This document shows, one piece after another, positions 6,051-49,063 of a stretch of 64,000 bases of DNA; positions within the stretch are counted from its first letter, which is position 1, and each line of letters starts with the position of its first letter. The stretch comes from Verrucomicrobiales bacterium (GTDB lineage: Bacteria; Verrucomicrobiota; Verrucomicrobiia; Limisphaerales; J093). The stretch is taken from contig JABTUJ010000001.1 in the NCBI GenBank assembly GCA_015075445.1, forward strand, positions 231,059-295,058. The letters are read 5' to 3'. Position numbers and translations under genes: made by a program. The notes below the pieces were generated by a model, which worked only from the letters and a program-made list of their open reading frames with translations, was not told where the DNA came from and did not search any database.

Positions 6051-6605
6051 ATGAAACCCTGCCTGTCCCTCTGCACCCTCGCCGCCGCCTTGGTCCTCCT
6101 CGGCTGTTCCTCAACCCCCACCCAGGTCGACCACGGCGCGATTGCGGCGAAGACCTTCAGCTTCGTCAACCCCGGCAACCGTCCGGCCCCCGCCTTCGGC
6201 GACAACCGCGAGCACGTCCATCAACTCGTCCAGGAAGCCATCACCCGGAACCTCGCCGGCCGCGGTGTCGCCCGGACGCCGGCCGGCGGCGATGTCACCG
6301 TGGCGTACTTGATGATCGTCGGGAACAACGCCTCGACCGCCGCCGTCAGCGATTACTTCGGCTACGGTCGCGATGCCGCGGCGCTGAGCGAGAAGGCCCA
6401 GGAAGCCTACAGCCACGCCAAGACGCCGAACTACTTCGAGGCGGGCACCCTGGTGATCGACGTTATTGACACGAAGACCAACAAGCTGCTCAAGCGCGGC
6501 CACGCGACCGGCCCGCGTCTGCGCAACCTCCCTCCGGATGCCCAGGCCGCCACCGTGCAGGAAGCCGTGGACAAGATCCTCCGCGACCTGCGCTTCGCAC
6601 CCTGA
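6051..6605 (+). CDS. DUF4136-like lipoprotein
   Basis: 184 residues. Signal peptide with lipobox LVLLGC (Cys19) and mature start SSTPTQVDHG. The mature part has the DUF4136 layout: an early KTFSFV strand, a central region with VTVAYLMIVGN, then TLVIDVIDTKTNKLLKRGHATG and a C-terminal helix AVDKILRDLRF, which is the usual end of the domain. The role of these outer-membrane-associated lipoproteins is unknown. It closes the run of small envelope genes; a repeat array follows. Confidence 0.8.
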   Translation: MKPCLSLCTLAAALVLLGCSSTPTQVDHGAIAAKTFSFVNPGNRPAPAFGDNREHVHQLVQEAITRNLAGRGVARTPAGGDVTVAYLMIVGNNASTAAVSDYFGYGRDAAALSEKAQEAYSHAKTPNYFEAGTLVIDVIDTKTNKLLKRGHATGPRLRNLPPDAQAATVQEAVDKILRDLRFAP

Positions 6606-6667
6606 CCCCAGGGGAGGTTCCTCCCGCACCCCACTCCCTATGCTGCGTCCCGACGCCCGCAACGCCT

Positions 6668-6985
6668 GGCAGGCTGGCCGTGGTTTGGCGGGATTGTCCC
6701 CTTTGGCATCCTGGAACTTCCCTTGAACTTTGACCTTTGTACTTCGAGCTTTCTGCCCTTCGTCTTTCGCCCCACCCCGGCAGGCTGGCCGTGGTTTGGC
6801 CGGATTGCCCCTCTGGCATCCTGGAACTTCCCTTGAGCTTTGACCTTTGAACTTTGGACTTTCTCGCCCTTCGTCCGTTGCCCCACCCGGGCAGGCTGGC
6901 CGTGGTTTGGCCGGATTGTCCCCTTTGGCATCCTGGAACTTCCCTTGAACTTTGACCTTTGACCTTTGAGCTTTCTCGCCCTTCC
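6668..6985. repeat. Family B tandem repeat, three copies of 111 bp
   Basis: Copies begin at 6668, 6779 and 6890, exactly 111 bases apart. Each runs from GGCAGGCTGGCCGTGGTTTG through TGGAACTTCCCTTGA to a pyrimidine-rich end CTTTCTCGCCCTTC. The third copy stops directly in front of the ATG at 6988, so it forms the whole leader of that gene. The gap 6606-6987 holds nothing else that I can see. Shorter reverse-oriented relatives occur at 43641-43722 and 51954-52005. Confidence 0.95.
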
Positions 6986-6987
6986 GC

Positions 6988-7905
6988 ATGAAACCTCCCC
7001 TCGCATTCCTCCGCCGGCAGGTTAGCCTCTGGCTCACCGCGGCAATCCTCTGCGCGTCCGCGCTACCCGCCCTCGCCGGAGACCCGCCGCCGCTGCCCCC
7101 GTTGACCACGGTCTCGGGCAACCCCCGGTTGCCCGGCAAGTTCGTCTGGGCCGACCTGGTCACGGACAACGTCCCCGCGGCCACCAAGTTCTACGGCGCG
7201 CTGTTCGGGTGGACGTTCTACGCCGTGGGCCCGTACGTCATCGCGGCCAACGACGAACGGCCCTTGTGCGGGATGTTCCAGCGCCCGCGCCCCGGCGACC
7301 GTCCCGAAGCCAAGCCCCGTTGGTTCGGCTACATCTCCGTGGCCAACATTGACCGCGCCGAACGCGCCGTCGGGCAGGCGGGCGGCAAGGTCTTGGCCCC
7401 GCCCGCCAAGTTCCCCAAGCGTGGCGAGCAGGCGGTCTGTCGCGACCCCGAAGGCGCCCTCTTCGGCCTGATCAAGTCCAGCTCGGGCGATCCGGAGGAT
7501 TTCCTCGCTTCACCGGGCGACTGGATCTGGATGCAGTTGCTGAGCCACGACGCCCGGAACGCGGCCGAGTTCTACCGGACCGTCGCCGGCTATGAAATCG
7601 TCGAGAACACCCGCGACGACCGGATCAACGACTTTGTGCTGACCAGCAAAGGGTATGCGCGGGCGACCATCCGGGCCCTGCCTGAAGCCGCGGCGAAGGC
7701 GCAACCCACCTGGCTGCCGTTTGTCCGGGTGGCGAAGGTCCCGGACGCCGTGGCTCGCACGCGCGAGTTGGGCGGCACGATCCTGTTCGAGCCGCGACCC
7801 GAACACCTCGGCGGCCGGGTGGCGGTCGTCGCGGACCCGACGGGGGCCGCGATCGGCCTGCTCGAGTGGAGCGAAGACCTGCTGCCAGGAGGGAGGCAAC
7901 CGTGA
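6988..7905 (+). CDS. Exported VOC/glyoxalase-fold protein, two domains
   Basis: 305 residues. A signal peptide ends near LPALAGD. Two VOC modules follow: about 48-170 (GKFVWADLVTDNVPAATKFY ... GALFGLIKS) and about 180-300 (WIWMQLLSHDARNAAEFYRT ... GAAIGLLEWSE). These are the paired beta-alpha-beta units of glyoxalase/extradiol dioxygenase-like proteins that bind a metal and small ligands. The substrate is unknown and export is unusual for this fold. The start codon directly follows the third 111-bp repeat. The stop overlaps the GTG of the next gene. Confidence 0.85.
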   Translation: MKPPLAFLRRQVSLWLTAAILCASALPALAGDPPPLPPLTTVSGNPRLPGKFVWADLVTDNVPAATKFYGALFGWTFYAVGPYVIAANDERPLCGMFQRPRPGDRPEAKPRWFGYISVANIDRAERAVGQAGGKVLAPPAKFPKRGEQAVCRDPEGALFGLIKSSSGDPEDFLASPGDWIWMQLLSHDARNAAEFYRTVAGYEIVENTRDDRINDFVLTSKGYARATIRALPEAAAKAQPTWLPFVRVAKVPDAVARTRELGGTILFEPRPEHLGGRVAVVADPTGAAIGLLEWSEDLLPGGRQP

Positions 7906-8348
7906 ACAGGAAGTTTCTCAGCGGCGCTCTTGATACAGCTTCCCAACGCAAAGCGGCGGTCAACCGCACGCACTCCAGACGCGGGCGCGAGGGTCGCACG
8001 GCAGGGCCGGCGCGGAGCGTTTGGAGTGCGCCGTCTTCCAGCGGCGCTTTTCGTTGCTGGCGCGCCTTCTCGGCAGCGCTAGCGCTCGCGCTGCTCACGC
8101 CCCTTTTCACCGGTTGCGAAAGCACGGGGGACGGTAGCTCGAGCACGGCGGTGTACTACGGGGCCGGTTTCTACGATCCCTGGTTCTACGGCGACTATTA
8201 CTACGACAGCCCGGACGTCATCGTCACCCCGCCGTCGGCGCCGGTGCGCCCGAGCCATCCCATTGCCACGCCGCCCACGGCAAGACCGCGACCCACCCCG
8301 ATGCCTTCCATTCCCTCGGGCCCTCGACCGATGCCCCGGGGGCGTTGA
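7902..8348 (+). CDS. Small lipoprotein whose signal region contains an interspersed palindromic repeat
   Basis: 148 residues from GTG 7902, which overlaps the previous stop (GTGA). Residues about 16-51 are encoded by a 107-bp repeat also found at 48878-48984, giving a very long basic n-region. A hydrophobic core and the lipobox FTGC follow, with Cys72. The mature part is about 77 residues: a Tyr/Asp-rich stretch (FYDPWFYGDYYYDSP) and a Pro-rich tail. No alternative ATG, GTG or TTG lies between the repeat and the core, so translation must pass through the repeat if the protein is made. Function unknown; it could be a decaying gene. Confidence 0.6.
   Translation: MNRKFLSGALDTASQRKAAVNRTHSRRGREGRTAGPARSVWSAPSSSGAFRCWRAFSAALALALLTPLFTGCESTGDGSSSTAVYYGAGFYDPWFYGDYYYDSPDVIVTPPSAPVRPSHPIATPPTARPRPTPMPSIPSGPRPMPRGR
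7947..8053. repeat. Family C palindromic repeat inside a gene
   Basis: About 107 bp with imperfect inverted ends: AAAGCGGCGGTCAACCGCAC at the left and GCGCCGTCTTCCAGCGGCGC near the right end, the arms pairing around an unmatched centre. A second full copy lies at 48878-48984 and a half copy at 43751-43795. Confidence 0.85.
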
Positions 8349-8368
8349 GGGGCAAGCCACCGCCAAGC

Positions 8369-9460
8369 ATGAATCCGGAGCGCAACAGGCTGGAGCAGGG
8401 GCTGGGCTGGACGGTCCTGGCCCTGCTGCTGGGGGGGTGTCTCCTGGTGCTGCGCCCGTTTATTTCCGCGCTGCTGTGGGCGACCATCCTGAGCTTCTCG
8501 TTCTGGCCGTTGTACGGTCGGGTGCTGCGGTTTCTCGGAGGCCGTCGGACCCTGGCCGCGCTCGTTCTCGCGCTGGCGATGGTCGGGGTGCTGCTGCTCC
8601 CGGTGGCCATCGTGGGTGTCACGCTGGGGGATCACGTCACGCAACTGACGACCGCCACCCAGCGCTGGCTGGATGAAGGATTGCCCGCGCCCCCGGCGGG
8701 GCTCGCGAAAGTGCCCGTCGTGGGTCAGCGACTGGTGGACGGGTGGGCGCGACTCCAGGCCCAAGGGGCCGGCTGGGTGGGCGAAGTGAAGTGGCTGGTG
8801 GATCGGATGGGGGCGTGGTTGCTCAAGATGAGCCTGATCGTCGGCAGTGGACTCTTCCAGCTCACCTTGAGCATCCTCATGACCTTCTTCTTCCTGCGCA
8901 ACGGACCGGCGTTGGCGGACCGGCTGTCGGCGGCGGTCGAACGCATTTCCGGGGAGCGCGGCCGGCACCTGTTGACCGTGGCCGGCAGCACGGTGCGCGG
9001 CGTGGTGTACGGCGTGCTGGGCGCGTCGTTGGCGCAGGCGCTGATGGCGGCGGTCGGCTTGGCCCTCGCGGGTGTGCCGGGCCCGAGCCTGCTGGCTTTG
9101 CTGGTGTTCCTGTTCTCGGTCGTTCCGGCCGGGCCGTTTCTGGTGATGCTGCCGGCCGCGCTCTGGTTGTTCCATCAAGGCGCGAGTGGTTGGGGTGTCT
9201 TCCTGCTGATCTGGGGGCTGGGCGTGAGCACGATCGACAACGTGGTCCGCCCCTGGCTCATCAGTCAGGGCAGCGAGCTGCCGTTTCTGCTGATCCTCCT
9301 TGGCGTCCTGGGCGGCGCCGTCGCCTTCGGTTTCATCGGAGTCTTCATCGGTCCCACGCTGCTCGCGGTCGGTCATCGCATTGTCCAGGAATGGGCCTCC
9401 GCCCGGCATTTGACGTCCACCAACCCCGCGGGGGCTCTGGTTCCCCGCCCCTCGATATGA
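8369..9460 (+). CDS. AI-2E family (PerM-like) membrane permease
   Basis: 363 residues from ATG 8369; an in-frame TTG at 8345 is less likely. An N-terminal hydrophobic pair (about 10-75) is followed by a soluble helical region, then the family's C-terminal membrane bundle with GVVYGVLGASLAQALMAAVG, FLVMLPAALWL, the diagnostic STIDNVVRPWLIS and LLGVLGGAVAFGFIGVFIGP. The family exports or takes up varied solutes (autoinducer-2, Na+/H+ exchange), so the name does not prove quorum sensing. Its stop overlaps the start of the DUF3300 gene (ATGA). Confidence 0.93.
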   Translation: MNPERNRLEQGLGWTVLALLLGGCLLVLRPFISALLWATILSFSFWPLYGRVLRFLGGRRTLAALVLALAMVGVLLLPVAIVGVTLGDHVTQLTTATQRWLDEGLPAPPAGLAKVPVVGQRLVDGWARLQAQGAGWVGEVKWLVDRMGAWLLKMSLIVGSGLFQLTLSILMTFFFLRNGPALADRLSAAVERISGERGRHLLTVAGSTVRGVVYGVLGASLAQALMAAVGLALAGVPGPSLLALLVFLFSVVPAGPFLVMLPAALWLFHQGASGWGVFLLIWGLGVSTIDNVVRPWLISQGSELPFLLILLGVLGGAVAFGFIGVFIGPTLLAVGHRIVQEWASARHLTSTNPAGALVPRPSI

Positions 9461-43476: not shown

Positions 43477-43852
43477 AACCCCGTTCGTTCCCCCGCCGGT
43501 CGTCCGCTCGGAATGGAGTCTTGGAGCCCGGAGCTGCAGGCGGGACGCCTGCACCACACGGTTCATGGGAAGCGGACTGTTCCTCTTGGGCCTGCTCAGG
43601 GGCGATCCCCCTGGTGGAGCAAAGGGCGCAGGCAGACGAAGTTCAAAGTTCAAAGTCCAAGACTCAAGGGAAGTTCCAGGATTCAATGGAAGAAGTCCGG
43701 CTCAACGGTGGCCAGCCTGCCCAGGGGTGCCTGGGTCACCGCCCTGGGCGCGGCGCGCAGCGTATGGAGTGCGCCGGCTTGCAGCGGCGCTTTGCGGGAC
43801 GAAGCTGCAGGCGGGAGGCCCGCACCACAGGGTCACGGAGCGCCTCCCTCAA

Positions 43853-48810: not shown

Positions 48811-48877
48811 CCCGCAGGCAGTCGGGGGATCGCCAGGCACGCCCCCGGGACCACTCGCGGTTTCGGAAGGCACGGAC

Positions 48878-48984
48878 GAAAAGCGGCGGTCAACCGCACG
48901 CACTCCAGACGCTGTCGCGAACGCCCCACCACCCGGCCGGCGCGCAGCGTTTGGAGTGCGCCGACTTCCAGCGGCGCTTTTCGT
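48878..48984. repeat. Family C palindromic repeat, intergenic copy
   Basis: Same 107-bp imperfect palindrome as 7947-8053, with ends AAAGCGGCGGTCAACCGCAC and CCAGCGGCGCTTTT. It occupies the middle of the 253-bp gap between the pentapeptide gene and the prepilin gene; nothing else is seen in that gap. Confidence 0.88.
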
Positions 48985-49063
48985 TCACTCGCCCCCCGCC
49001 CCCCGCGACTCTCTGCGTTGAATCGTCTCCGGCGGACGAGCCCGTGAAGCTGCCCCCGCGGGG

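Follow-up and report, generated by a model that had tools for sequence, protein, structure and literature searches.

A palindromic repeat of 112 bp lies in frame within the leader of a lipoprotein gene in the window analyzed here, the whole stretch of 64,000 nucleotides at positions 231,059 to 295,058 of contig JABTUJ010000001.1 from a Verrucomicrobiales bacterium. The repeat is likely (probability of roughly 0.72) tolerated in this leader, where it would form a long n-region of positive charge and be removed by signal peptidase II. We infer translation from the GTG at 7902, export, lipidation and cleavage of the protein, and turnover of the element by gene conversion.

The lipoprotein gene (7902..8348, plus strand as for all features at this locus) encodes a precursor of 148 residues with a GTG start, and is identified from its sequence and from syntenic orthologues in three further genomes (G003, G005 and G051). 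The GTG overlaps the TGA of an upstream gene with two glyoxalase/VOC domains (6988..7905; Pfam PF18029/PF00903), and a Shine-Dalgarno-like motif, AGGAGGGAGG (7887..7896), precedes it and is identical in G003. The overlap of start and upstream stop (GTGA/ATGA) is common to the window, G003 and the element-free G005; the start position therefore predates the insertion. Codon 1 is the sole ATG, GTG or TTG of the window leader, with none in frame 3' of the element, and among the other start-like codons checked there is just CTG64, within the hydrophobic core. The frame is unbroken over all 148 codons. The core at residues 58-69, AALALALLTPLF (8073..8108), leads into the lipobox LFTGC (8103..8117) with the codon for Cys72 at 8115-8117, the combination of h-region and terminal lipobox Cys that defines a lipoprotein precursor. 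An earlier sequence-only reading had described this core and lipobox as otherwise intact and had placed the Cys at residue 72, both correctly. The lipobox Cys is usually found near residue 20 and roughly within the first 15-35 residues, a range that Cys72 exceeds in the window and in G003. The strict lipobox rule has L, V or I at position -3, and the F found here falls outside it; the same F is present in the orthologues of G003, G005 and G051. The n-region comprises 57 residues before the core in the window, with a net charge of +10 (+8 in G003). Its maximum hydropathy over 12 residues is 0.31 (0.63 in G003), and that of the core 2.23 (2.06 in G003).

The element occupies 7945..8056 and codons 16-51, with a 5' arm of 38 nt (7945..7982), an apical loop of 34 nt (7983..8016) and a 3' arm of 40 nt (8017..8056). 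The sequence-only reading gave it 107 bp, which falls short, and residues 16-51, which stand. Its abundance lies far outside chance expectation: a query of 301 bp spanning it returned 72 matches at E<=0.001 in the organism's own genome (G000; 8.2 Mb in 100 contigs), nearly all restricted to the element. Aligned copies have two arms of ~40 nt with a small hairpin in each and a variable loop. RNAalifold finds 24 consensus pairs with compensatory changes at 3 of them, and the fold energy has a modest advantage over shuffled sequences (z -1.82; 11 of 200 shuffles equally good). An RNA model constructed from 30 copies has matches in 35 of the 58 genomes searched, with at least 65 each in G000 and G003; these genome-wide counts are lower bounds, and genomic contexts were taken from listed sites. 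A known structured RNA was rejected as the identity of the element, with no Rfam match up to E 1 across 7800-8400 of the window. A second full element lies at 48875-48986 of the window and half an element at 43751-43796, and 7919..7934 may be a remnant of another element's 3' end, a weak match of 13 of 16 bases. G003 also carries tandem arrays of similar, evenly spaced copies (L125:2453-3630, spaced at 137 bp; L110:2409-3028, at 122 bp).

A protein search of 58 genomes recovered the lipoprotein in four (G000, G003, G005 and G051), and non-detection in the other 54 may reflect low sensitivity for such a short protein. In the congeneric G003 an element occupies the same position in the same frame, and the protein likewise has Cys72. 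The comparison with element-free orthologues that the sequence-only reading proposed is provided by the more distant syntenic genes of G005 and G051, which encode the lipoprotein with Cys32 and Cys24, respectively. The G003 gene, in which insertion and spacing are shared, is the kind of orthologue that reading had named as a refuting observation; it argues against a recent damaging insertion, one of the possibilities raised, and for tolerance. Between the window and G003, the elements are identical at 74 of 78 arm positions and at 12 of 34 loop positions. Loop identity in the other shared-site comparisons ranges from 0.50 to 1.00 with a median of ~0.83 (14 of 15 other rows, the truncated L099 pair left out). 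In-place turnover seems to occur, since two of these sites also have low loop identity (0.56 and 0.50). The slot thus appears conserved and its element content apparently turned over between the two species.

The sequence following the insert is under selection. Comparing the window with G003, the ratio of nonsynonymous to synonymous substitution rates (dN/dS) is 0.14 for codons 52-72, covering the signal core and lipobox (a small sample of just 21 codons), and 0.13 for mature codons 73-130, which include a few codons beyond a frameshift in G003. The downstream syntenic gene for an AI-2E family transporter (8369..9460; Pfam PF01594) serves as a yardstick with dS 0.287 and dN/dS 0.14. Signal core and mature part are under purifying selection in two element-carrying species, and the low dN/dS 3' of the insert indicates a sequence that behaves like a working lipoprotein in both lineages. 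The 14 codons that separate the start from the insert look unconstrained (dN 0.355, dS 0.105). Insert codons 16-51 have a dN/dS of 0.95, and a Fisher test of changes gave p 0.0015 (rounded counts; 19:7 in the insert vs 16:32 in core plus mature part). Neither value is evidence of neutrality, because the ratio mixes arms that have barely changed with a loop that is dissimilar, and a neutral-codon reading of the insert was dropped.

We propose that a palindromic repeat inserted into the n-region of a lipoprotein signal peptide that already existed, most likely in a common ancestor of the two congeneric species. The inserted sequence contributes positive charge and contains no membrane-spanning stretch. 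Because its sense frame is open, poor in hydrophobic stretches and rich in Arg and Lys, the element would act as an overlong, net-positive n-region. From what is generally known of Sec export, such an n-region should stay cytoplasmic and signal peptidase II should remove all of it. The unchanged h-region would engage Sec with the n-region remaining on the cytoplasmic side, Lgt would lipidate Cys72, and LspA would cut off residues 1-71. The mature protein would then contain none of the residues encoded by the element, and this expected removal in the course of protein production is probably why so long a signal is tolerated. The slot would remain open to element turnover, with arms and frame kept and the loop replaced.

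Several points weigh against this account. The filled site is known from just one other genome, an in-frame GTG also lies upstream at 7866, and the dN/dS estimates carry the limits given above. Relative to the window, the G003 locus (L046) is frameshifted both in the VOC gene and within the 3' part of the lipoprotein gene. The G003 element ranks only 35th of 106 among the nearest relatives of the window element; in 8 of 13 comparisons at other shared sites, the counterpart ranks first. As the two elements are not each other's closest relatives, one ancestral insertion is not proven. Separate insertions into the same hotspot in the two species, which would otherwise fit a tolerated leader, are a possible if less probable history; the distant relationship and the divergent loops favor them, and the identical base position and frame, together with the two other shared sites of low loop identity, speak against them. 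Both histories fit the data; the identical position and frame lead us to prefer an ancestral insertion followed by gene conversion. The sequence-only reading also considered that export might be abolished; the gene would then be a pseudogene or yield a cytoplasmic product. Such damage would be consistent with a Cys far past its usual place and with the G003 frameshift. It is nonetheless improbable given purifying selection on core, lipobox and mature part, a site filled in both species and an intact frame in the window; the G003 frameshifts, which also affect the upstream gene, are probably assembly errors. The alternative it offered, a tolerated long n-region, is the one favored by the same site in G003 and by selection.

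Translation could instead begin inside or after the element, leaving the element 5' untranslated and the leader of ordinary length. Passages of one survey of repetitive extragenic palindromic (REP) elements report that this is often so for REPs at the starts of open reading frames (PMC3733652). Most elements near gene starts in our data likewise precede the likely start, and the G003 leader has extra start codons, ATG3 and an in-frame GTG40 inside the element, the latter of which would give a leader of 33 residues. The window offers no ATG, GTG or TTG after codon 1 at which translation could begin past the element, and CTG64 lies in the core. Conservation of the upstream start context extends to the element-free G005. 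A start inside or after the element is improbable. The element may instead be functional, its mRNA hairpin or charged peptide regulating translation, stability or targeting, in line with proposals for extended regions of signal peptides. Both species carry an element, and its arms changed at 4 of 78 positions vs ~19 expected at the synonymous rate of the neighboring gene. However, most other shared sites have arms conserved to a similar degree, which makes arm conservation a property of the family. The loop differs between the species, orthologues manage without an element, and the predicted accessibility of the start region is hardly altered, for which reason a hairpin masking the ribosome site was rejected. 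A function of this kind seems unlikely.

We read the contexts of the window and of 80 loci (134 matches, 107 near full length) plus 10 loci (10 matches), drawn from G000 and G003. A codon model trained for this analysis found none of the 144 matches interrupting a gene body; the model cannot score a 15-codon leader, and leader cases come from a downstream scan. Five or six frames are open in 79 of the 107 full copies, so closed frames are not the reason for this absence. C-terminal read-in was found as one weak case among 134 (L124). Elements before a start were judged by eye as 5' untranslated at L068, L070, L076, L080, L088, L101, L109, L239 and others because a plausible start follows the element. 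L068 and L104 are orthologous exported-protein genes, and in both species an element directly precedes the start. At L073:2684-2744 (G000), a partial element lies just before a gene with the leader GWVPRGWRCAQVLAVV, and the last element codon may supply the GTG start of that gene. None of 55 matches on 40 stretches of G012, G037, G025 and G021 is flanked by coding sequence on both sides. The sole clear downstream-coding case lies just before a start of the twin-arginine translocation (Tat) type. These matches are lower-scoring relatives of the model, with both-strand duplicates merged by hand and matches weaker than ~E 1e-6 removed.

In-frame coding sites were found in three genes, all of them at export leaders: those of the lipoprotein, a GH127-domain protein and a pseudopilin. 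The idea of a natural test of signal peptide limits, already voiced in the sequence-only reading, survives and is widened by the two additional genes. The secreted protein with a GH127 catalytic domain carries two tandem in-frame antisense copies in its leader in G000 (L078:2414-2760) and one in-frame antisense copy in G003 (L114:2440-2685), with no synonymous change over 28.6 sites of the aligned insert. Its homologue in G012 has the same MNPL beginning and an ordinary signal peptide without an element. A GTG inside the element could be an alternative start of the GH127-domain gene. The pseudopilin has an N-methylation motif, and in G000 a full element precedes GFTLIELL (L082:2487-2660). The G003 orthologue retains about half an element with the frame kept (L155:1500-1600), and no element was recognizable by eye in homologues of G001, G002 and G009. 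The pseudopilin start is uncertain, with TTG, GTG or ATG upstream and GTG-ATG inside. Both proteins would undergo the same removal by their own peptidases. These three sites suggest that leaders may be unusually tolerant of inserts. Tentatively, cleavable export leaders might offer mobile palindromes a refuge at the protein level, since the encoded residues would be removed by signal peptidase II, signal peptidase I or prepilin peptidase. Coding DNA would then hold no other place where the palindromes persist, expand (as the tandem copies in the GH127 leader exemplify) and turn over.

The element is best read as a non-autonomous palindromic repeat that is REP-like or resembles miniature inverted-repeat transposable elements (MITEs). 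A hairpin per arm and long arm pairing provide the paired inverted palindromic units of REPs and REPINs (REP doublets forming hairpins), and imperfect terminal inverted repeats, AACGCAAAGCG and CGCTTTTCGTT, are typical of MITEs. Passages on REPs describe high-copy, mostly intergenic palindromes with some in clusters, much as here, and report REPs within open reading frames, most numerous being the GTAG repeats of the verrucomicrobial O. terrae (PMC3733652). The consensus differs, starting with CACGCAAAGCG and ending with GCGCTTTTCGTTC, and by eye contains no GTAG/CGTC end tag. No element match was found at the loci of the 15 Y1_Tnp matches in G000 (~1.5 kb each side), and mobilization by a RAYT (REP-associated tyrosine transposase) is not supported by linkage to Y1_Tnp genes.

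The nearest precedents, by analogy, are Rickettsia palindromic elements (RPEs) and Yersinia RU-2/YPAL in YPO1552. Parts of two accounts describe RPEs as palindromes of ~105-146 bp, intergenic and fused in frame within protein genes, that occur also in related species (PMC2229807, PMC10969869); many conserved proteins contain them, with 19 reading frames in the review's account. The present element is a palindrome of a similar kind with intergenic and in-frame copies, the latter in three genes whose translation is inferred. It belongs to an unrelated phylum and, unlike RPEs, does not insert frequently into conserved protein bodies (0 of 134 and 0 of 10 matches), with all coding sites at export leaders. 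RU-2 makes residues 1-30 of YPO1552 and helps create its signal peptide (PMC2229807), whereas the insertion here would have entered a pre-existing lipoprotein leader and supplied just extra n-region. Autotransporters have long signal sequences, exceeding 50 residues, in which the N-terminal extension is positively charged and forms a recurrent domain (PMC2805444); the extension here is repeat DNA with a non-conserved loop in a lipoprotein. Among the listed titles and abstract beginnings of the open-licence literature, no repeat inserted in a lipoprotein n-region was found. A separate repeated unit lies between two genes at ~6600-6985 of the window and shows as a repeated peptide in a minus-strand open reading frame.

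The lipoprotein provides a natural experiment on the length limit of the n-region, since in two species a leader of ~71 residues occurs together with a selected core and lipobox. The Cys72 protein would escape rule-based lipoprotein finders that restrict where the Cys may lie. The three leader genes suggest a general filter on the survival of repeats in coding DNA.
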